A stretch of DNA of 64,000 nt from a virus. The position numbers and the translations under genes were made by a program. Where the stretch lies: positions 62,001 to 126,000 of IMG/VR virus record IMGVR_UViG_3300022680_000058; one strand, written 5' to 3'. Of the stretch, positions 4,864-60,410 are shown piece after piece; the first letter of the stretch is position 1; every line of letters begins with the position of its first letter. Below the pieces are notes generated by a model. That model did not search any database. It saw nothing but the letters and a program-made list of their open reading frames with translations, and was not told the origin of the DNA.

Positions 4864-5841
4864 CTAGAGCCACTCCCTCGCATGATTCGCTGCCCCACGG
4901 GGCACCGGAACACCAAACAACTCTGAAAGCTCCTTGATGAGATCTCTTCGCTTCGCAATAGGGAGCCACGAGTCGATTTCTTCGACCACATTGTCAGTGT
5001 AGTCCCCGACGCCATCCACACCCTCGCTCCATGCTGCCTCACAGGCTTCCTCAGCCACGTTATCGAACGTGATGACATATTCACGAGGGCCGTTCTTTCC
5101 ATTCCTGACAGCCGCCCCAGCGATGGCAACCGAGTCACAGAAAATCTGGGTATTGGGGCTCACCGACTCGATGGCGCGGAGTGTCAACGAGAACTTCGAC
5201 CCGCGACTCTTGGGACCAATACCAAGGAGGTGAACCCGAGCAGGCTTGACCTCGGCACAGAAGTCTCTGATGTCCTGAACGCTGGTAGCATCCTTCTGCA
5301 TTGGGAAGGCACAAACGAAGTCGTCAAACCCGAGGAATTCCACCGCATAGCAGTGGAACTCGACGAGCGGGATTTGACCCTTCTGGTGGGGAACAATGAT
5401 GTTTGCCCCGAACTCTCGACAGCGACGGACTCTCTCGGCGTAGGCTTCGAGCCTGTCTAAGGTCTCCCACTGGTGAGCAACCTTGTCCGGCGCAACGATG
5501 AAAAGCTGACCACCGAGCCGCTTTGCCAACCGCTCGTAAAGGTCGAGAATCTGGCGCCAGTCCTCATCGAAGATTGGAGCCACCGTGTAGGGACCGTTCT
5601 CGTCGAAGTCGACCTCCGAGTATGCCCCCGAGTCAACGAAGACCCGCCGACCAGTCCCAGCGAGCTCATAGAGCGCCTCTTCACAAGACCGAATGGCGCC
5701 CTCTTTCGTCGACAAGAGTTCACCAGCAGTGACGCCCACGTCGATCCCAGCCTGGTGGAATCCTCTGACGTCCCCGACTCGCGACGAACCCGAAGCGAAA
5801 TAGACGTAAGGGTTGGTGACTTCCAGTGGTATAAGCGCCAT
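4864..5841 (-). CDS. TGT-superfamily base-exchange enzyme, possibly DpdA-like DNA 7-deazaguanine transglycosylase
   Basis: 325 residues with hallmarks of the tRNA-guanine transglycosylase fold: VDSGAYS at ~69-75, LFIVAPDK at ~113-120, VHLLGIGPKSRG at ~203-214 (compare the LxGVG loop of TGT) and IFCDSVAI at ~233-240, which may carry the nucleophilic Asp. The C-terminal zinc site of bacterial TGT is absent. Phage members of this superfamily (DpdA) insert 7-deazaguanines into DNA; that substrate is inferred because a phage has little need for a tRNA enzyme. No preQ0 synthesis genes are visible in the window, so the base would have to come from the host or from genes elsewhere. Start at 5841 is chosen because it follows the promoter at 5870-5898 and has a GAGG upstream. 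Monocistronic with its own promoter. Confidence 0.6.
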   Translation of the reverse strand: MALIPLEVTNPYVYFASGSSRVGDVRGFHQAGIDVGVTAGELLSTKEGAIRSCEEALYELAGTGRRVFVDSGAYSEVDFDENGPYTVAPIFDEDWRQILDLYERLAKRLGGQLFIVAPDKVAHQWETLDRLEAYAERVRRCREFGANIIVPHQKGQIPLVEFHCYAVEFLGFDDFVCAFPMQKDATSVQDIRDFCAEVKPARVHLLGIGPKSRGSKFSLTLRAIESVSPNTQIFCDSVAIAGAAVRNGKNGPREYVITFDNVAEEACEAAWSEGVDGVGDYTDNVVEEIDSWLPIAKRRDLIKELSELFGVPVPRGAANHAREWL

Positions 5842-5869
5842 GTCCGACCTCGTTTCCTCGACCATATGC

Positions 5870-5898
5870 AATGTAGACATATGGTTTGCGTTTGTCAA
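5870..5898 (-). promoter_or_regulatory. Promoter sharing a 17-bp sequence with the one at 55245
   Basis: TTGACA, 17 bp, TACATT. The first 17 bases (TTGACAAACGCAAACCA) are identical to those of the plus-strand promoter at 55245-55272, so the two genes may be co-regulated. Confidence 0.7.
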
Positions 5899-18448: not shown

Positions 18449-18856
18449 TCACTCCTCCTCCAGTAGATAGATGAACGCGCCCCCTCTGATAACGCCCTCC
18501 CTTGCGTAGTCGTACTTGGCGCGAATCCTGGCGAGCTCCATCGAGATGTGAGCAACAGCAAGGTTGGTGTCTTCGGGCTCATGGTCGCAGATGGTGTGCG
18601 AATTCGCCCCATCGGGCTCATCTCCCTCACCACACCATCGCCATCGAACGTCGCCACTTCGCGCCTTACCATTGGCGTCAGTCATTTGACAGACCCCAAC
18701 CACCACACGCTCATAGACCCTGTCGATCTTACAGTCGTAATTGAAACGAGCCACCACGAAAACGGCCCTCTTGCTCCAGTCCTGGTGAACTCTCTCCACG
18801 CCCACGACGACAGCTTTCGGCCCGATAGCCTCATACTTCATGTTGATTCCGTTCAT
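18449..18856 (-). CDS. Unknown protein
   Basis: 135 residues, beta-rich first half (AVVVGVERVHQDWSKRAVFVV) and helical end. Cys and His scattered. Coupled to the genes on each side by short overlap or spacer. Confidence 0.5.
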   Translation of the reverse strand: MNGINMKYEAIGPKAVVVGVERVHQDWSKRAVFVVARFNYDCKIDRVYERVVVGVCQMTDANGKARSGDVRWRWCGEGDEPDGANSHTICDHEPEDTNLAVAHISMELARIRAKYDYAREGVIRGGAFIYLLEEE

Positions 18857-19262: not shown

Positions 19263-19634
19263 TCACGCTGCCACAGCAGCTTGTTCCTGACTCAAGAGGT
19301 CTTCTTCAGCGTTGATGCACGACGCCCTTGACTCTGGGTCCAAATCGACGTTGGACCCGTCGTGCTTGAAGAGTTCCACAAGAGCAGCAGGCAAGCTGTA
19401 AGAGATCCTTGACTGCCAGATCCACTGATCGTTGTCATCGATCTCGACAGCGAGCCAACAAGGGCCATGGGGAAGCTTGACGAGGTATCCCACCTCTTCG
19501 AGGTAGCGATTCGTCTCGCCCGTTCTCGGGTCGTACTCGACCACTGGACGGGTGACACAGACATTACGTCCGCCCATCCAGAAGAACTGAAGAAAAGGGA
19601 AAATGGTGCGGATGACGTTGACGAAACTGGACAT
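19263..19634 (-). CDS. Unknown protein, start of a transcription unit
   Basis: About 123 residues starting MSSFVNVIRTIFPFLQFFW. A hydrophobic N-terminus could act as a membrane anchor or signal. GGAGGT precedes the ATG, and the promoter at 19659-19686 gives a short leader. Confidence 0.55.
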   Translation of the reverse strand: MSSFVNVIRTIFPFLQFFWMGGRNVCVTRPVVEYDPRTGETNRYLEEVGYLVKLPHGPCWLAVEIDDNDQWIWQSRISYSLPAALVELFKHDGSNVDLDPESRASCINAEEDLLSQEQAAVAA

Positions 19635-19658: not shown

Positions 19659-19686
19659 ATCTTATGGCATGGTTTCAGATTGTCAA
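19659..19686 (-). promoter_or_regulatory. Sigma70-like promoter
   Basis: TTGACA, 16 bp, TAAGAT on the minus strand, about 25 bp ahead of the start at 19634. The CAAAG-TTT-CTTTG palindrome at 19707-19719 lies just upstream. Confidence 0.7.
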
Positions 19687-46878: not shown

Positions 46879-48318
46879 CTACGCCTCCCTCAACGCACCA
46901 ATGAGCTGATCAGACAGCGACTCCAATCGCCGCTTCTTCCCCATAAACTGCTCGAACCGCTGCCTCTGCTCACGATTGAGCTTGATCCTACTGAACTGCT
47001 GCCCCACATACCCGCTAAAGAGCTCTGCGAACTCCTCTGCATCATCAGTTCCACCGTATTTCGACGGGAACTTCACCTTCCCAAACCACTCCTTGAATCG
47101 ACCACGATCATCATGGCTCATGAACTTGAACCAATACCTATGGCCCAATTCATGAATAATAATGTCGGCATCCGTATCATTGCTGTAGATGTCCACGCCA
47201 TCAAGAACACGAGAATACGCCGCTGCTGCCTTTATGGACGTTTTGAAAACAGCCTCATACGATCCAGGCGGAAGCTTGATGAAATCCCCATACCACAGAC
47301 GCGATAGACCTCGACGCCTCAAAAGCGCCTCAACCTTCCTGAGTTCAGAAACAAGCTTGTTCCTGTGTGTCGGTGACATCCCCTTGGTGCTTGCCAGGAA
47401 AGCACGATCGAATCTCTTCGCCTCACCACCAGAGACCCTCATCTGACTTGTCATCTTCTCTTTGCGAGGGTCCTGAGCAATATCCTTGAACACCAGGTTC
47501 ACACGACCAATATGGACAACATCCTCAACGGGGACGCCAGGGCGGGTCCCATGCTCTGATGGAGCATATCTCCCACCAGTATCACCCTTAGCTTTCACGA
47601 GCCTTGAAAGCGACCTCAGGAGCCGCCCAGAGATAGCCTTCGTAGCCTCCTCAACCCCTTCATCGGCCTTCGCAGGGATACTCCTCAACATCCTGGCATA
47701 TTCATCCACAGACCTGAACGTGTTGTAGAACACCGGCTCCCCAGAGAATGAAAACTGCCCCTCAGGATGAGACTCGTTCTTGTAGAACGTGATCGCCCCG
47801 ATCGCGTCCTTGATCGCCTCCTCAGCCTTCTCGATCTCCTCCACAGTCTTCTTCACTGGCCCAAACTTCTCTTTTCGGTCCTCGTCCGCTTCCTTCTCAA
47901 TTTTGACGAGCATGTCATGCATCTTTGGGTCTTCAGACTTCAGCTTTTTCTTGTAAGCTGGAGTCATCCCCGAGACCTTTCGGAAAGCCTCACGGCTCCA
48001 GAGACCCTTCGTCCAATACAGATCCGTCTTGAGCTGCTCGATGGCATTCTTGACCGAGGTCAGATACTCGATAGCATCGTCGGCAGCCTTGGCGTACTCA
48101 TCCCATGTCCCGACCTCCTTGACATCCTTTGGCGGTCTCCCTGGGTAATCCTTGACCTTGTCGGCGATACCCTTCCACCACTTCCGAATCCCAGAGATCC
48201 ACTCATCGTCAATCTCATGTCTCTTCCTTGGATTTACCCTGCGATGCATTTGTTGTGGGGTAGGGACCTTGTACGAGCCCGCCATCGCCGCTTCGAGCAA
48301 AACATCGGAAAGTCTCAT
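46879..48318 (-). CDS. Second zinc metallopeptidase with SPxxMHRR-type leader
   Basis: About 479 residues starting MRLSDVLLEAAMAGSYKVPT, leader ending TPQQMHRR. Long helical middle, then ADIIIHELGHRYWFKFM and DDAEEFAELFSGYVG: HExxH plus downstream Glu, as in zincins. Separate from the first peptidase in length and layout. Inverted repeat CGGATAG-3-CTATCCG lies upstream (48360-48376). Likely virion-associated. Confidence 0.65.
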   Translation of the reverse strand: MRLSDVLLEAAMAGSYKVPTPQQMHRRVNPRKRHEIDDEWISGIRKWWKGIADKVKDYPGRPPKDVKEVGTWDEYAKAADDAIEYLTSVKNAIEQLKTDLYWTKGLWSREAFRKVSGMTPAYKKKLKSEDPKMHDMLVKIEKEADEDRKEKFGPVKKTVEEIEKAEEAIKDAIGAITFYKNESHPEGQFSFSGEPVFYNTFRSVDEYARMLRSIPAKADEGVEEATKAISGRLLRSLSRLVKAKGDTGGRYAPSEHGTRPGVPVEDVVHIGRVNLVFKDIAQDPRKEKMTSQMRVSGGEAKRFDRAFLASTKGMSPTHRNKLVSELRKVEALLRRRGLSRLWYGDFIKLPPGSYEAVFKTSIKAAAAYSRVLDGVDIYSNDTDADIIIHELGHRYWFKFMSHDDRGRFKEWFGKVKFPSKYGGTDDAEEFAELFSGYVGQQFSRIKLNREQRQRFEQFMGKKRRLESLSDQLIGALREA

Positions 48319-48461: not shown

Positions 48462-48478
48462 TAACGTATTGAAAACAT

Positions 48479-48844
48479 TGGAGGCGGTCAGAGTCGAACT
48501 GACGTCCACACCCCCTCTGCTCGTGAGCTCTACGTGCGTATCTCCTGATCAATCTCGGCGTCATCGAGTTCAGGAGCAAACTCTCTGAGCCAGTCGTGCG
48601 AGATGTCAGCCGCGCAGGTTACAGAATGAGTCACACACGAGACACTCACTCACTACGCGCCGCTAATGGCGCCCCTTGTTCCCATAGCAGCAGTCTGGGA
48701 GGGACGTGAGATTACGCCGCCAGGCTCATCTCAGGATAGCTGTCAGTGTTGGCAACTGGTTGTTCGTCCTGTTTGACGCACAAGGACGATCCTCGGCACG
48801 CTCACACAAACGTCATGGGATCTGTCGAAACCTTTTTCGCCCCC
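48479..48844 (-). ncRNA. ssrA: tmRNA (ssrA)
   Basis: 366 nt including CCA. The 5' end GGGGGCGAAAAAGGTTTCGAC and 3' end CAGTTCGACTCTGACCGCCTCC pair as a tRNA-like acceptor with a G-U at the third pair, the alanine identity element. The resume codon GCC is at 48753 and the tag frame reads ANTDSYPEMSLAA then TAA at 48712, ending in the usual LAA. It rescues stalled ribosomes and tags their products. Found 25 bp downstream of the ParB gene; no promoter of its own is obvious, so it may be co-transcribed. Confidence 0.92.
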
Positions 48845-49741: not shown

Positions 49742-49897
49742 TCACCCTGGAACTCCAATCAGAGCTGCGAGGAAACCAATGGTTCCTCCGATATACCAAG
49801 GGGCCATGATGACAGCGAGCAATATCGCACCAGCAACGATGTTCAACCCCTCGGCAATCATCCTGACCAGCGACTCAACCATCTTTGCCCACGTCAT
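49742..49897 (-). CDS. Small membrane protein (51 residues)
   Basis: Starts MTWAKMVESLVRMIAEG, then a hydrophobic stretch with one or two short membrane spans (LNIVAGAILLAVIMA and IGGTIGFLAALIGV). GGAG lies eight bases ahead of the ATG. Could be a holin-like or small membrane protein; unknown. Lies between parB and the RNA region. Confidence 0.5.
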   Translation of the reverse strand: MTWAKMVESLVRMIAEGLNIVAGAILLAVIMAPWYIGGTIGFLAALIGVPG

Positions 49898-50092
49898 GGA
49901 CCATCTCCAGAATCAAATCAAGCACTGTGTCGCGATGACAAAGTGTACACCACACCGCCGGGTAAGGCGGCGACAGGCGGACAAACCTGCTCCTCTGGGG
50001 TTTCAATCCAGCGTGCGTTCTGGGGTGGCAGCCCCAATGTCCGATCACTTGTCATCACGAGCGCCCCTCTGCCAAGGGAACGACACACAATG

Positions 50093-50230
50093 CGGTAGGG
50101 TAGGCTGGACTCGAACCAGCTAGTGACACGGAGACACTCTTTTTTGAGTATCAGAATGGCGACGAAATCAAAACGACCCATTCCGACTAGCAACTTCCGT
50201 ATCGCCACGCTCCCTGTGAGCTCTCACCCC
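50093..50230 (-). ncRNA. tRNA-like element, non-canonical
   Basis: T-arm GCTGG-TTCGAGT-CCAGC then CTACCCT and A; a possible partner for the acceptor is GGGGTGA at 50230-50224, followed by a D-arm-like GCTC-ACAGG-GAGC. Middle is too long (about 135 nt) for a normal tRNA. Confidence 0.25.
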
Positions 50231-50377
50231 AAAAAGGAAGTCTAGCCTTTCTCCTCAACTAAAAGCACAACACTTCAAAGTGCTATGAATCGCCTAATTA
50301 GGGCGGTCTAGTCTCGATCCTGGCACACGTAGTCCAAAAGTCCCTTGCAGCAACAGGGCGGTACTGGGCTGACTTCC

Positions 50378-50483
50378 TGGTGACGATGGCTGGACTCGAA
50401 CCAGCGCCTCCCCTCGATACTTCCAGGGCTACCTTCCTCTACAAGGTTTCGGTCTCCTAATCCCTTGCAGGCGGGTCATCGCT
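50378..50483 (-). ncRNA. tRNA-like element, Ser/Leu type with CCA
   Basis: Same T-arm, acceptor CATCGTC and encoded ACCA. Upstream are an anticodon-arm-like ACCTT-7nt-AAGGT hairpin (loop GTAGAGG) and a variable-arm-like CCCT..AGGG. A 5' partner is GCGATG at 50482-50477 (six pairs), or GACGATG at 50530-50524 for a longer element. Confidence 0.35.
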
Positions 50484-51066
50484 CAATATGGAGGTACCAA
50501 TTCCACGAGCCCCGCTTAGTACACATCGTCAATTCGCGCTTGCTTTTCTTGACAACCAATCCGGACAAGGCGAGATGCTGGGCTTCCAGCATCGAACCTC
50601 GAAAAATTGTCCCTGGCGATTCGCCAGACGCCAAGCGCCACCTCACTCTCAAGTCTGTCCGGCCAGATTCCTCCACCTGGCTCCAGTTTCAGTCCGCACA
50701 ATGCGGAAACCGTCGCACCATCGAGCTCAACCACCACCCGACAGCACAGACCTTTCTAGGCCCACTCCAACCAGGGCACCACACGCCCTCGGACAGCTTC
50801 AGTGGAAAGTCGAGGACCCGCCCCTCGATGAGACCTGACGCGCCCATTACAACGTCCGTCTCTTCCCAGCCGGGAGACAGAGACCAAAGAAAAGTCCCGA
50901 GGCCATGCCAGATGGTTTTTCTTTCATAACACCTGGGCGACCAGTCTCCCTTATCGAGTTCTTCCGCATTGATCGAGGGTGGTCGACTCAAACCTCACAC
51001 GGCGACTGCACCGTATGGGTGGCGCCCATGATTGACACGCCTCGCCTCCACGAATGCTTAGAACCC

Positions 51067-51154
51067 GGTGGGAAGCCGGGGAATCGAACCCCAAGGCCCA
51101 GTGAAAACGACGTGAAGCAACCCGTGTAAGCTTCTATCATTTATGCCGCTTCCC
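51067..51154 (-). ncRNA. tRNA-like element with perfect acceptor stem
   Basis: GGGAAGC at the 5' end pairs fully with GCTTCCC at the 3' end, next to T-arm TGGGG-TTCGATT-CCCCG. Discriminator A then CCG rather than CCA. Length 86-88 nt suits a class II tRNA, but no normal anticodon arm is seen (a GAAGC..GCTTC stem has an 11-nt loop). Confidence 0.4.
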
Positions 51155-51254
51155 ATGGCGCGAACAAAACAAGAGTACATGGACTCTTTATCGGAACTCT
51201 GCCCTGACCGACATGAAAGGAGAGCATTCACTCTCATCTGTCCGCGTCCCACCT

Positions 51255-51283: not shown

Positions 51284-52200
51284 GAATCTTTTTTCACCTC
51301 GCCAGTACTTTCTTCCTCGTATCTCTCCAAAGCCCTCTTCGCCTCACCTATGGCGAGCTCACAAGCATTCAATGGAACCAAAAGCTTCTTGACCGCTTGG
51401 CCCTCCACACTCTTGATCCACTCCCTGACCTGGTCGACAGTGACAGGCGCCTCCCCATGCCTGAGGATAGAACTCGCCTCAGCCCCCATGGAAACCCACT
51501 TACCCGAAGCCATGGCGAGGACTTCAAGAGGCTGTTCGAGTTCACGACGCCTCTTCTTGAGCACCTTCCTCTCATCCTCCATCCTCAAGCGAGCTCTCTC
51601 TAAATCCTGCCGCTCCCTCTTCACGAGCCTCTCGACCATCACGTCGATCTGTTCAGGCCGAAGCCAGAGACCCTCGAAGAAGTAGTGCCGATGCTTCACC
51701 TGATCCAACTGGACCGCCAGAGCTCGAATCGTAGAGAGTGCCAACTCCTCAGGGAGCGGCTCGATCTTGCGATGCTTCGCAACCTTCACCTCTCGAATCT
51801 TCGAGCCGTTCTTCGTCGCGACCATGAGCCCCCAACCCTCTGGGACCTCATCAGGCTTCACGAGCCCACTGGGAACCGCGAAGTAGCACTTGTGGAAGTT
51901 TTCCTCGACCCACTTCCGCTTGAGAGGGTTCTCCATCTCCTTCCGGAAGTCCGCCCGAGACCTTTTGACTTCGTAGGCAACCCGAGTAAACCCCTTGCTG
52001 GGCCAGCAGTTGAAAGCCGCGACATCGATCCGCCCTTCGCGACCGTCACCGTATCCCACCCCGGCACGAAGCTCTGTCACCACGACCCACTCTGTTCGGT
52101 TCGTGTGACGAGCCCTCAGGAGTTCCTCAATGTTGATTTGTGACTTCTCTCTCTTAGGCTCGAAACCGAACCTAGAAAGAACCTTTGGGGAGTCCACCAC
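51280..52200 (-). CDS. MmcB/PD-(D/E)XK-like nuclease-related protein
   Basis: 306 residues. ELRAGVGYGDGREGRIDVAAF followed by VAYEVKRSRADF gives a D...ExK pattern as in MmcB-like DNA repair and related nuclease folds. The C-terminal half is a long coiled coil and helical part. Substrate unknown. Just ahead of the RNA promoter. Confidence 0.55.
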   Translation of the reverse strand: MVDSPKVLSRFGFEPKREKSQINIEELLRARHTNRTEWVVVTELRAGVGYGDGREGRIDVAAFNCWPSKGFTRVAYEVKRSRADFRKEMENPLKRKWVEENFHKCYFAVPSGLVKPDEVPEGWGLMVATKNGSKIREVKVAKHRKIEPLPEELALSTIRALAVQLDQVKHRHYFFEGLWLRPEQIDVMVERLVKRERQDLERARLRMEDERKVLKKRRRELEQPLEVLAMASGKWVSMGAEASSILRHGEAPVTVDQVREWIKSVEGQAVKKLLVPLNACELAIGEAKRALERYEEESTGEVKKDS

Positions 52201-54010: not shown

Positions 54011-54038
54011 TTGACAAACTGAAATCAGGCTATAATAT
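54011..54038 (+). promoter_or_regulatory. Sigma70-like promoter
   Basis: TTGACA, 16 bp, TAATAT, overlapping a TATAAT at 54031. GAGAGGAG follows ahead of the ATG at 54063. Confidence 0.7.
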
Positions 54039-54062: not shown

Positions 54063-54341
54063 ATGAAAGTTTTCGCCACCATCATCACCGGCACCACCTG
54101 GGCAATCTACAATCTCCACACCGGAGAACTCCTCGAAAAAAGCGGGGACCGCCGGAAAGAAGTCACTTACAAGGTCGACTTCGACTTCGATTGGCCATGG
54201 TCGGCTGATCGCAAGTACCAAGACTCGATCCACCAAGTCAGCAACGAAGAGCGGGCCAAGCGCTTTCAGGAGCGTTGGCCAAACGAATTCGAGGACCCGA
54301 ACGCCTACACCCCACCGGCTCCCTCGGCCCTCGGTTTCTAA
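54063..54341 (+). CDS. Unknown small protein
   Basis: 92 residues, beta-rich start (VFATIITGTTWAIYNLHTGE) and Trp-rich centre (FDFDWPWSADRK). Good ribosome binding site. Unknown. Confidence 0.55.
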   Translation: MKVFATIITGTTWAIYNLHTGELLEKSGDRRKEVTYKVDFDFDWPWSADRKYQDSIHQVSNEERAKRFQERWPNEFEDPNAYTPPAPSALGF

Positions 54342-54895: not shown

Positions 54896-55248
54896 GCTAC
54901 TACGAACGCACAATCCGCGAAATCAATCGACGGCAATGGATCGACCTCGCTTTCGAACTCATCGAAGAGATGATGGACGAAGGCGAGGACCCTGATTGCA
55001 GGCTCCTGAAAGCCGCAGAGAACGTCCATGGATTCATGGAAGGTATGAAACCAGTCAAAGCTCTCAGAACCGCTGGGAAGCTCGCCCTGGACTATCAAGG
55101 ATGCCTCCCTCCATCAACAGACTGGCTCAGTTCAAAAGAAATGAGGGCACACTATAGACGTAATGACGCCGCCCAAGTCATCAGGTACGCTACAGCCAAG
55201 ATTCCGCCCTCGAAGAAACTTTTACAAAAAACTCTCCACTCCCGTTGA
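54892..55248 (+). CDS. Unknown helical protein
   Basis: 118 residues starting MSYYERTIREIN; ATG overlaps the stop of the previous gene. Helical and acidic in the first half. Stop codon TGA lies within the -35 of the helicase promoter. Confidence 0.55.
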   Translation: MSYYERTIREINRRQWIDLAFELIEEMMDEGEDPDCRLLKAAENVHGFMEGMKPVKALRTAGKLALDYQGCLPPSTDWLSSKEMRAHYRRNDAAQVIRYATAKIPPSKKLLQKTLHSR

Positions 55249-55272
55249 CAAACGCAAACCAGTGCATATGAT
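55245..55272 (+). promoter_or_regulatory. Promoter sharing a 17-bp block with the one at 5870
   Basis: TTGACA, 16 bp, TATGAT; begins with TTGACAAACGCAAACCA as at 5870-5898. Confidence 0.7.
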
Positions 55273-55341
55273 GTAAGTGAACTGGCAATGACATCCAGCG
55301 GTGATCCTCTCGGAATTCCGAGAGAAGAAAGGTTTTTTGAT

Positions 55342-57396
55342 ATGGCACTCGGAAAAGCAATCGCAACCATGGCGACCGCAGTCGCAATCTCCACCCAGGA
55401 CGCTGAAAAAAAGCTCCTCGGTGGCCTCAACCCCGAACAGAAAGAGATCGTTCTCCACGACAAAGGTCCGATCCTCGCCGCCGCCGTCGCTGGGTCGGGT
55501 AAGACCCACACCTTGGTCAACCGGGTCGGCTACCTCACCGCAGTCCGTGGCGTAAATCCTCGCCGCGTTCTCGCCGTCACCTTCTCGCGAAAGGGTGCCG
55601 AAGAAATGAACGAGCGGCTCGTCTCGCTCATCGGAGACACCGGAGCCAGAGTCGGCACCTTCCACTCCCTCGCTCTCCAGATTCTCCGAGAAGAAGGACG
55701 CATCAAAGACTGGACGATCGATGATCGGGATCGCTACCGCTACTGTGTCAAGGATGCTGTCAGTTGGCAGGGTATGAAGTGGACCAGAGCTGACCTCACA
55801 CTTCTTGTCCAATACATCTCGCTTTGCAAGTGCGCTCTCGCCCGTCCCATGACCGCCGAAGCCGAAGCTATCGCCCAAGATATCCGGGCGAAAAACCCGC
55901 GCCCCTCGACCGTCGTCGAAAAGATGATGGAAGCCTACGATCGAGCAGAAGAAGTCCGAAAAGAGCGTATGATTATCACCTTCGATGACATGCTCTTCGA
56001 CGCCTGTGAACTCCTCTCCAATGACGAAGGTCTCAGGGTCCGCTGGGCTTCAAAATGGGATTACGTCCTTCAGGATGAGGCCCAAGACCAAAACCTCGGG
56101 CAGCTCCTCCTTGGAGAGCTCCTCGCCAAGGACCATCGGAACTACATGCTCGTTGGCGACCCCGCACAGACCATCTACACTTGGCGCGGCGCCCGCCCGG
56201 AAAAACTCCTCGGGTTCGAGGAAAAGTGGGACGCAAAGAAGGTCATCATGTCGCGGAACTACCGCTGTGGCCAAGAAATCATCGGAGTCGCCAACAAGGT
56301 GCTCGAATCGATGGACCCAGCGACTCGCCTCGACACTCAAATGATTTGTGAACTCGGAACCACTGCTCAAGTCACCTGCCGACAGTTCGAGGATCTCGAC
56401 GAAGAGGCAGAAAGCATCGGTGTCCAGATCAAAGAGGCACTCGAATCCGGTGTGAAGGCCCGAGACATCGGAATCCTCTACCGGACCAACGCCCAGAGTC
56501 GAGGTCCAGAAGAGGCACTCATTGGTCTCGGAATCCCATACAGGATCATCGGCGGGGTGAACTTCTACGAGCGGAAAGAAGTCAAGGATCTCCTCGCATA
56601 CCTCAGGCTCGCCGAAGGCCGTGGGTCGCTTGACGACGTCGCCCGGTGCATCAATGCCCCGTTCCGCTACCTCGGGAAAGCCTTCGTCGGCAGGGTCCGA
56701 GAAGCCACCAAAAAGGCCCGCGTCGCCGCTCGCAAGAACAACGGGCGGATCAGCTACCCAGCACTCATCAAGAAAGTCGCCCAGCAAGAAGGAATCCAAG
56801 CCCGCCAGCGATACTCAGTCCAAGACTGGGCTGACATGATCGAACTCTGTCACTCGAAGATCCAGGCAGGAGAAAAGCCCGCCAGAATCCTCGAACAGAT
56901 CATCCTCGATACCCAATATATCGGCTGGCTCACCCGCGACCAAGGCGAGGAGAGCACGGAGAACTCGCGGGTCTCGAACGTCCGTGAGATGGTTCGAGCC
57001 GCCGAACGATTCCCGACAACCAAAGGACTCCTCGACTACATCGACAAGACTCTCAAGGCCAGCAAAGACCAAAAGAGCAAAAACAAGAACCCGAACAAAG
57101 TTACTTTGACGACGATCCACCGCTCGAAGGGTGGAGAGTTCCCCGTTGTGTTCTCCATCGGCGTCAACGAGGGGATTCTTCCCCACGCCCGAGCTGAGGA
57201 ACCCGAAGAAGAGCGACGCCTCTTCTATGTCGCCGTCACCAGGGCAATGAATGAGCTCCACATCTCCTGTGTGAGACAAGCTGCCATCGGTAACAGAGTC
57301 CTCGCTCTCTCCCCCTCACCATTCATCAAGGATGCCGGTCTCGTCATCGAGAGCGACCCCCAAGACATCGCCTTCGGTGACCCCAGAGACGTCTAG
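55342..57396 (+). CDS. SF1 DNA helicase, UvrD/PcrA-like
   Basis: 684 residues starting MALGKAIATM (AAGAAAGG upstream, after the promoter; an upstream ATG at 55288 is possible). Motif I AAAVAGSGKTHTL, motif Ia VLAVTFSRKGAEEM, motif II YVLQDEAQD, motif III LVGDPAQTIYTWRGA, motif IV MSRNYRCG, motif V TTIHRSKGGEF and motif VI FYVAVTRAM. 3'-5' helicase for repair, recombination or rolling replication. A variant CAAAG-3-CTTTG palindrome lies in it (57096-57108). Confidence 0.9.
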   Translation: MALGKAIATMATAVAISTQDAEKKLLGGLNPEQKEIVLHDKGPILAAAVAGSGKTHTLVNRVGYLTAVRGVNPRRVLAVTFSRKGAEEMNERLVSLIGDTGARVGTFHSLALQILREEGRIKDWTIDDRDRYRYCVKDAVSWQGMKWTRADLTLLVQYISLCKCALARPMTAEAEAIAQDIRAKNPRPSTVVEKMMEAYDRAEEVRKERMIITFDDMLFDACELLSNDEGLRVRWASKWDYVLQDEAQDQNLGQLLLGELLAKDHRNYMLVGDPAQTIYTWRGARPEKLLGFEEKWDAKKVIMSRNYRCGQEIIGVANKVLESMDPATRLDTQMICELGTTAQVTCRQFEDLDEEAESIGVQIKEALESGVKARDIGILYRTNAQSRGPEEALIGLGIPYRIIGGVNFYERKEVKDLLAYLRLAEGRGSLDDVARCINAPFRYLGKAFVGRVREATKKARVAARKNNGRISYPALIKKVAQQEGIQARQRYSVQDWADMIELCHSKIQAGEKPARILEQIILDTQYIGWLTRDQGEESTENSRVSNVREMVRAAERFPTTKGLLDYIDKTLKASKDQKSKNKNPNKVTLTTIHRSKGGEFPVVFSIGVNEGILPHARAEEPEEERRLFYVAVTRAMNELHISCVRQAAIGNRVLALSPSPFIKDAGLVIESDPQDIAFGDPRDV

Positions 57397-57507: not shown

Positions 57508-58149
57508 ATGGATATCCAAGAAGTCAACGCAATCTTGAACCAGGCGATCGAAGGTCTTCAGTTCGCCGAGATCGAAGCCCTGGCAGAGTTCACCATTCCA
57601 TCGCCCGCAGAAATGCACAGACGCTCCGGAATGCCCCTTCCCAAGCCCGAGGTCCCGACACCGGCAGAGATGCACAAGCGCTCTGGAATGCCCCTCCCTG
57701 GCAGCGTCAGAGTGACCAAAGGGAGTCAGCATCCAAAGACAGCTTACCAGTCCGTAGCGTCATCCAAGAAAACGAAGCCGACCCACTTCTACAATCCACA
57801 AGGCAACCTCATGGACCCCGACAAGGGGAGTCGAGCCAACGTCAAGAAAGCTGAAGAGCTCGCCCAGGTCATCCAAGCCGCCACAGATGAGGTCTACAAA
57901 GATTTCGGCATCGAGGGATACTCTCGAAGCAAGAGCGGTGGACTCGTCACCGTGAATCCCAAGAAGAAGTTCATCGCAATCGATATCGGGAGCTCAGGAA
58001 AGCTCCTCGTTGGTCCGAACAACTTCGTATGGGGCATCAAGGGCTACGGAGTCCGCCACCCTCAGAAGTTCTATGGAACTGTCGACGAAATGATCCGGAA
58101 TGGATTCTCGATCACCATCGGCGGGACGCCCTACATCATCAAGGCCTAA
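57508..58149 (+). CDS. Protein with shared leader and repeated AEMHxRSGMPLP motif
   Basis: 213 residues starting MDIQEVNAILNQAIEGLQFAE, leader followed by FTIPSPAEMHRRSGMPLP and then VPTPAEMHKRSGMPLP. This duplicated motif links it to the block at 42-48 kb despite its distant position on the other strand. C-terminal domain mixed alpha/beta. Probable virion or packaged protein. Confidence 0.6.
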   Translation: MDIQEVNAILNQAIEGLQFAEIEALAEFTIPSPAEMHRRSGMPLPKPEVPTPAEMHKRSGMPLPGSVRVTKGSQHPKTAYQSVASSKKTKPTHFYNPQGNLMDPDKGSRANVKKAEELAQVIQAATDEVYKDFGIEGYSRSKSGGLVTVNPKKKFIAIDIGSSGKLLVGPNNFVWGIKGYGVRHPQKFYGTVDEMIRNGFSITIGGTPYIIKA

Positions 58150-58938: not shown

Positions 58939-59081
58939 ATTATTCAAATCTAGTGGTTCGAGGTATTGGCCCCCTGGCGCCATCCAGGCGGGCCATCTTT
59001 GTGAACAAAGTCTCTTTTACTCTTGACAGGCTATTGACAAACCTAAATCAGTCCACACCTTGCTTGTGGAGGTCAAGAGAT

Positions 59082-60410
59082 ATGAGAACTCTTCCGATCA
59101 TCATCGCCATGCTCGCCCTTCTGGCGGCATGTGACGCAGGCCCAGAACGAAGAACCGATGACACAGATCCACCATTGGATGGTGACGTCGAACAGCCAGA
59201 TGGAGACGCCGACGGTGACGCCGAACCAACCGACGGTGACGGAGATGTCGACGGTGACATCGACGGTGACAGTGACGTCGATGGAGATGTCGACGGTGAC
59301 GCCGATGGTGACACAGACGACTGCTCCGAAAGCATCGAACTCTGTGATGGCATCGACAACGACTGTGACGGACTCATCGACGAAGATGAAGCATCCGACG
59401 AATGCACTGCCGGAAACATGTGTATCGACGGAGCATGTGAAACCTCACAGATTACCCACATCACAACCGGCGGGTCACACAACTGCGCCCTGAGACACAA
59501 CGGCAGAATCGCTTGCTGGGGTGGTCCTGGTCGAGCTCTCGGGTATGGCTCCGAAGAACCATCAACACAACCGGTGACAGTCGCCGAGATTTCAAACGCT
59601 GTCGAAATCTCAGCCGGTGGAATCGACGGTGGCGGTCACTCCTGCGCCATCCTTGACACCGACGAAATCTGGTGCTGGGGTGACAACGACCAAGGCCAAC
59701 TCGGGACATCTTCGAGCTCCAGAACGAGCACGCCAACGCTCGCAACAAGGACCAGAGCAGAGAGCATCTCCTCGGGGTACAAGCACAACTGTGCAATCTC
59801 AGACGGAATCCCGCTCTGCTGGGGACAGGGATTCTCCATGAGCCCGATCCCGCTCCCGACGATCTATGCAATCAGCCTCGAATCGTTCGGAAGCCTGAGC
59901 TGTGTCAACCAAGGGTCGTCAGATACAGATTGCTTCGATGGCGTCGGGTCCCCAGATTACTCCTACGACATCACAGGTATCGACATCGCCGTCGGATCGA
60001 ACCACGTCTGTGTGGCCACAGGAGCCCCCTCTTACGGCGTCGAGTGTGCTGGTGACAACACCTATGGCCAGACTTCCACGGGTGGCTACAGCCTCCCCAG
60101 GGTCGCCGAGGTCACCGCTGGGGACAACCACTCATGTTTCCTCTCGACGAACGGGCACGTCTACTGCTGGGGAAGGAACCACAGAGGTCAGCTTGGGATC
60201 GGAAACACCACGGACACCTCTGTTCCAACCCAAGTCTATGTCGGGTTTGACCCGCTGTCAGGGGTCATTCAGATTGACGCTGGGAACAATCACACCTGCG
60301 CCCTGACGAACATGGGCGAGGTTCTGTGCTGGGGGGACAACAGCAACGGTCAGCTCGGAAACCTTCACTCTGGTGACTATGAGACCCTTCCGTCTCCCGT
60401 CGACCTCTAA
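59082..60410 (+). CDS. RCC1-repeat surface lipoprotein with Asp-Gly-Asp linker
   Basis: 443 residues. Signal peptide MRTLPIIIAMLALLAAC with lipobox LAAC and Cys17 as lipid site. Residues ~25-85 are an acidic DGD repeat linker; then LCDGIDNDCDGLIDEDE plus Cys-rich segment, as in MopE-type metal-binding proteins; then about seven RCC1-like blades with paired Cys (HNCAL..ACWG, HSCAI..WCWGDNDQGQLG, HSCFL..YCWGRNHRGQLG, HTCAL..LCWGDNSNGQLG). Probably displayed on the host outer membrane during infection. GGAGGTC precedes the ATG. Very host-like for a phage gene, so likely acquired. Confidence 0.8.
   Translation: MRTLPIIIAMLALLAACDAGPERRTDDTDPPLDGDVEQPDGDADGDAEPTDGDGDVDGDIDGDSDVDGDVDGDADGDTDDCSESIELCDGIDNDCDGLIDEDEASDECTAGNMCIDGACETSQITHITTGGSHNCALRHNGRIACWGGPGRALGYGSEEPSTQPVTVAEISNAVEISAGGIDGGGHSCAILDTDEIWCWGDNDQGQLGTSSSSRTSTPTLATRTRAESISSGYKHNCAISDGIPLCWGQGFSMSPIPLPTIYAISLESFGSLSCVNQGSSDTDCFDGVGSPDYSYDITGIDIAVGSNHVCVATGAPSYGVECAGDNTYGQTSTGGYSLPRVAEVTAGDNHSCFLSTNGHVYCWGRNHRGQLGIGNTTDTSVPTQVYVGFDPLSGVIQIDAGNNHTCALTNMGEVLCWGDNSNGQLGNLHSGDYETLPSPVDL

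Follow-up and report, generated by a model that had tools for sequence, protein, structure and literature searches.

Genes and features of the window

The window analysed here (64 kb, positions 62001-126000 of a 147,979-base IMG/VR record from a large uncultured phage) carries, on opposite strands, a gene for a 325-aa protein that appears to be a divergent relative of the DNA-modifying enzyme DpdA, and a gene for a UvrD-type helicase (Table 1). The original prediction was made for the interval 4864-5898. This interval does contain the first of these genes, but the gene proper spans 4864-5841, with its ATG at 5841, and the remainder consists of leader and promoter. Both genes are preceded by the 17 bases TTGACAAACGCAAACCA, which had been described as common to the two promoters and which indeed occur as exact copies at these two positions only, in the window as well as in the whole record.

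The helicase is of the ordinary phage UvrD type, matching the Pfam profiles UvrD-helicase (1.7e-56) and UvrD_C (1.8e-51) as well as PHROG 1967 (2.6e-119). Helicases of this type were found in 154 phage records, each less than 60% identical to it, and the search of viral_contigs returned no close relatives. Its translation most likely starts at ATG 55342, which has an RBS-like AGAAAGG, rather than at 55288. The helicase leader contains, between the promoter and this ATG, a perfect 18-base palindrome, CTCTCGGAATTCCGAGAG (55307-55324, plus strand).

A complete tmRNA (ssrA) gene, with the tag peptide ANTDSYPEMSLAA, is located at 48476-48844 on the minus strand (ARAGORN; Rfam RF00023, 118.8 bits). 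Several otherwise different proteins encoded in the record have in common an N-terminal stretch of the GSYKVPTPxQM or TSYDVPAP type, sometimes placed after a helix-like, EAI-rich segment; this stretch is perhaps a targeting peptide cleaved by a prohead protease.

Table 1. Coordinates of the features discussed in the text (window numbering unless the record is named)
Feature	Position	Strand	Basis
Predicted DpdA-like (TGT superfamily) gene, 325 aa, ATG at 5841	4864-5841	-	alignment, AlphaFold, 9g DpdA profile match
DpdA-like gene, -10 hexamer TACATT, spacer 17	5870-5875	-	sequence and class-member alignment
DpdA-like gene promoter, -35 and conserved spacer, TTGACAAACGCAAACCA	5882-5898	-	sequence, class alignment
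Class promoter before 123-aa ORF (19263-19634), -10 TAAGAT	19670-19686	-	1 mismatch to TTGACAAACnnAAAYCA
Protein with GSYKVPTPxQM/TSYDVPAP-type N-terminus	46879-48318	-	
Class promoter before 92-aa ORF (54063-54341)	54011-54027	+	0 mismatches to TTGACAAACnnAAAYCA
Helicase promoter, -35 and conserved spacer, TTGACAAACGCAAACCA	55245-55261	+	sequence, class alignment
Helicase, -10 hexamer TATGAT, spacer 16	55267-55272	+	sequence and class-member alignment
UvrD-type helicase, 684 aa, likeliest start ATG 55342	55342-57396	+	Pfam, PHROG, RBS
Protein with GSYKVPTPxQM/TSYDVPAP-type N-terminus	57508-58149	+	
Class promoter-like site before 442-aa lipoprotein-like ORF (59082-60410), poor -10	59034-59050	+	0 mismatches to TTGACAAACnnAAAYCA
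Proteins with GSYKVPTPxQM/TSYDVPAP-type N-terminus	record 47730-48314, 49773-51227, 51644-52198	-	

A phage-wide promoter class

Both copies of TTGACAAACGCAAACCA belong to sigma-70-type arrangements, in which TTGACA-like and TATAAT-like hexamers lie 16-18 bases apart, with spacers of 17 and 16, respectively. With up to three mismatches the 17-mer is found at six sites in the window, against 0.12 expected. Throughout the record, a degenerate class of promoters can be described as TTGACAAACnnAAAYCA-(16/17)-TAnnAT. Its upstream part occurs five times exactly, nine times with at most one mismatch and 16 times with at most two, the corresponding means of 30 dinucleotide shuffles of the record being 0, 0 and 0.3, a contrast that is somewhat optimistic because the consensus was drawn from the same sites. 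Fifteen of the 16 sites are located 38-115 nt upstream of an ATG (the majority at 46-57 nt), on both strands; the remaining one (window position 18686) is likely a chance match and was set aside. The -10 hexamers are mostly TAnnAT-like, at a spacing of 16-17, with a few poor ones (59034, 143438). At the promoter-like site of the lipoprotein-like ORF, two TTGACA hexamers lie 11 bases apart (59023-59039, plus strand).

The shared block had been read as a special promoter pairing of the enzyme with the helicase, and no other pair of promoters in the class is identical over all 17 bases. Yet the sites with at most two mismatches precede ORFs of many kinds, namely the DpdA-like enzyme, the helicase, the lipoprotein-like ORF and many small ORFs of unknown function, the extra identity of the two copies is that of the class consensus, and the two promoters differ in both -10 hexamer and spacing. 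At the two variable positions of the class, G and C are the commonest letters, each in eight of 15 members, so that identity of two members over 17 bases is unremarkable. The special pairing is thus not borne out, and specific co-regulation of these two genes retains hardly any probability: the shared block simply reflects membership of both promoters in a sigma-70-like class that recurs about 15 times in the record.

Ordinary sigma-70 recognition needs no conserved spacer. The conservation of the spacer itself in this class (AAACnnAAAYCA) is unusual, and may point to an extra factor or to an effect of spacer shape. Stoperators are repressor sites in cluster A mycobacteriophages, and sites of this kind were considered since the motif contains TTGACA; the promoter-like placement of nearly all class sites directly before an ATG speaks against them. 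The motif is absent at the TGT-like genes of relatives. In a 186-kb phage (G005) that encodes a relative with 44% identity to the enzyme, two promoters of this class are found, neither of them at the gene for that relative.

Probable relationship of the 325-aa protein to DpdA

The 325-aa ORF gave no significant match in Pfam, PHROG, NCBIfam or PADLOC, and single-protein searches returned nothing from the viral, genome or phages collections. No similarity to phage DpdA was detectable by tblastn of the phages collection, and PDB chains were matched by sequence only at chance level. The Pfam TGT profile (PF01702), which matched all 14 control genomes, found nothing in the record even at an E-value of 10. 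A four-sequence alignment used as query recovered 69 viral and 29 bacterial-genome loci, and tblastn recovered 45 plasmid records. The plasmid relatives, from Pseudomonas, Shewanella, Alteromonas, Marinobacter, Cupriavidus and others, are mostly annotated as hypothetical; two of them match PHROG 887 (queuine tRNA-ribosyltransferase) at about 2e-6.

In an alignment of 59 sequences, D70-S71-G72-A73, P118-D119, P180, H204-x-L206-G207 and D236 are invariant, and the loop Q153-x-G155 is nearly so (Q153 in 53 and G155 in 58 of the sequences). These residues reproduce the ordered motifs of the TGT/DpdA superfamily, that is, DSG(A/G), a second Asp, a Q-x-G loop, (H/Y)-x-x-G and the catalytic Asp. The order is also that of phage 9g DpdA, the type that inserts preQ0 into DNA. 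In this protein and its relatives DSGAF is followed by HGFG, or in one case HAFS, which contains the conserved H196, and then by an Asp-Ser-Ser motif; the two families have in common DSGAF/Y, a conserved His before (x)LG or FG, and a following Asp-Ser/Ala. The invariant H204 would be the counterpart of 9g H196 (HxLG here, HGFG in 9g), an equivalence that rests on motif order because the hhalign alignment did not span that region. In the profile comparison with DpdA by which the original prediction was to be checked, hhalign gave probabilities of 94.7% and 92.6%, but over about 80-95 columns only and not over the whole length. E. coli Tgt aligns with the family at a single motif, DSGG.

AlphaFold, when given the 59-sequence alignment, predicted an alternating beta/alpha structure in TIM-barrel-like order with a pLDDT of 89.8, as compared with 37.5 from the single sequence. 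The fold matches in the PDB obtained by Foldseek include TGT (4.5e-5) and Cap10 (9ntn, 4.3e-4); they are supportive only, because the TM-scores are about 0.4 and other TIM barrels, mixed among them, score alike. Among viral structures, a phage polyvalent protein ranked first (3.8e-19); the matches also included a 'queuine tRNA-ribosyltransferase' of a mycobacteriophage. The similar scores of many unrelated barrels, together with the lack of a TGT profile match, would suit some other TIM-barrel enzyme, for example a lyase, an aldolase or an endonuclease, that had acquired TGT-like motifs by convergence. Such an origin is highly improbable given five separate motifs in DpdA order that are invariant in 59 sequences, the matches of relatives to PHROG 887 and the queD-queC-folE-queE operon in which one relative is found (see below). 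The alignment and the structural model suggest instead that the 325-aa protein falls, within the TGT/DpdA superfamily, into a large clade that lacks annotation, and that it is a relative of the guanine-swapping DNA enzymes.

Genomic context, target and possible role

The relative that bears most directly on function is encoded at locus L070, where queD, queC, folE, queE (assigned on a radical-SAM match and on position) and the family member come, in this order, after a DNA polymerase A gene, each overlapping the next. The family member shares 29% identity with the window protein (7e-33) and closes the operon, the place in which one would look for a dpdA gene. In this respect the relative resembles phage DpdA, whereas no match to QueC, QueD or FolE was found in the window's record, which is possibly incomplete. 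Among the records of 42 relatives, QueC was matched in two and QueD in one; a weak match to the QueC profile (26.9 bits) was seen in phage G005 (L105, record positions 132829-133026). With these genes lacking, the window's phage would depend on its host for the base. Phages carrying DpdA alone have been described (PMC6884629), and preQ0 genes are not required of singleton DpdAs, which makes a dependence on host preQ0 plausible.

Three relatives combine a DpdA-like domain with DUF6884 in a single protein: L016, which comes from a Cupriavidus plasmid, L060 and L090. A weak match to YaaA (PF03883) was obtained for L060 as well. DUF6884 has been described as a distant relative of YaaA (PMC11701544), and DpdC, the partner of DpdA in the bacterial Dpd system, has been assigned to the YaaA family PF03883 (PMC12839542). 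These fusions are thus reminiscent of the bacterial system; the window's record, in contrast, has no match to DUF6884, nor any to PAPS_reduct. Mom-like domains (DNA momylation) accompany the DpdA-like domain, within one protein or at one locus, in L037, L044, L063, L068 and L191, with Pfam matches below the curated cutoff. A PAPS-reductase-like PP-loop domain was present in the same protein or a few kb away in L044, L047, L055, L063, L076, L088, L090, L091 and L201, and likewise in the plasmid loci L004 and L006.

Many relatives lie inside giant multidomain proteins resembling the polyvalent proteins that Iyer et al. (2017, PMC5512222) described from phages and conjugative elements, whereas the window protein is a stand-alone one. 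Open frames of at least 600 aa, and up to several thousand, were seen at 35 of the 58 near-non-redundant viral loci; these lengths are upper bounds, given the uncertainty of the start codons. Domains known from polyvalent proteins, namely LPD38, InPase, RadC, N6-MTase or LPD1, are found in several relatives. The text of the polyvalent-protein paper does not mention TGT, queuine or DpdA (PMC5512222).

The likeness to tRNA TGT (Tgt, PF01702), which extends to the Asp-Ser-Gly motif and the predicted TIM-barrel fold, raises the possibility that the enzyme acts on tRNA, altering or removing the base at the queuosine position in tRNAs of the host or of the phage itself. Adjustment of translation is common in phages of this size, and this phage has a tmRNA of its own; the absence of preQ0 genes would fit a tRNA enzyme equally well. 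On the other hand, the window's record has no match to the Pfam profile, and the family differs from tRNA TGT in having Ala-Phe/Tyr rather than Gly-Phe/Tyr after DSG, and in lacking a conserved zinc-type cysteine cluster (the sole column with at least 10 Cys in the 59-sequence alignment is C235, with 13 of 59), as does the 9g-type DpdA alignment. Furthermore, DSGAF and the His motif are of the DpdA type, ARAGORN found no tRNA gene in the window, and DNA is suggested as the target by the domains to which relatives are fused (Mom-like, N6-MTase and DUF6884). We consider a tRNA target rather unlikely.

The presence of Cap10 among the fold matches, and the proximity of PP-loop domains of a QueC-like or PAPS-like kind to some of the relatives, could alternatively mean that the enzyme acts on a deazaguanylated protein, perhaps countering type IV CBASS, the host defence to which Cap10 belongs. 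Cap10 is a TGT-family protein with a TIM barrel that binds a protein N-terminus linked to 7-amido-7-deazaguanine (PMC11996544). This reading is very unlikely: the window protein and Cap10 have no detectable sequence match (nor did any other PDB chain match), the fold match is no better than those of other TIM barrels, the DNA-modification fusions speak against it, and the complete preQ0 operon of one relative points to synthesis and insertion of a base.

The original proposal of a TGT-like, perhaps DpdA-like enzyme is supported by the motif order, the comparison with the 9g DpdA profile, the predicted TIM barrel, the domain fusions and the L070 preQ0 operon, and this guess is better supported than that on the promoter. 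We favour, as the probable explanation, that the 325-aa protein is a stand-alone, divergent DpdA-like base-exchange enzyme with a host-supplied base and a promoter of the phage's common class; judging from the context of its relatives, phage DNA is the likeliest target. If the catalytic roles of D70, D119 and D236 are those of their presumed counterparts in TGT (D102, D156 and D280 in Zymomonas numbering), Asp236 would attack C1' of guanosine and expel guanine, with Asp70 serving as acid/base. A pocket formed by Asp119, the Q153-x-G155 loop and His204-x-Leu-Gly may hold the base that would replace guanine, namely a 7-deazaguanine, either preQ0 or a compound derived from it. The base would be supplied by the host, and its presence in phage DNA may confer protection from host nucleases. 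The class promoter would serve the DpdA-like gene and the helicase no less than many small genes.

It is tempting to speculate, though with considerable reserve, that a widespread DpdA-like clade without a name resides on phages and large plasmids, often within giant polyvalent proteins that possibly travel with the DNA, and that it marks incoming DNA, upon entry or shortly thereafter, with 7-deazaguanine obtained from the host. In that case the window gene would be a stand-alone member of this clade, and its promoter class may have a regulator of its own. The L070 operon offers a direct test case, and the promoter class provides a handle on the organisation of transcription in this phage. Should the speculation hold, modification of DNA with 7-deazaguanine would be commoner among phages and large plasmids than annotation shows, because none of Pfam, PHROGs, NCBIfam and PADLOC picks up this clade. 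The occurrence of the module in giant polyvalent proteins suggests that incoming DNA may be marked with a base taken from the host, in which case the host's supply of queuosine precursors would be a factor in both infection and conjugation.
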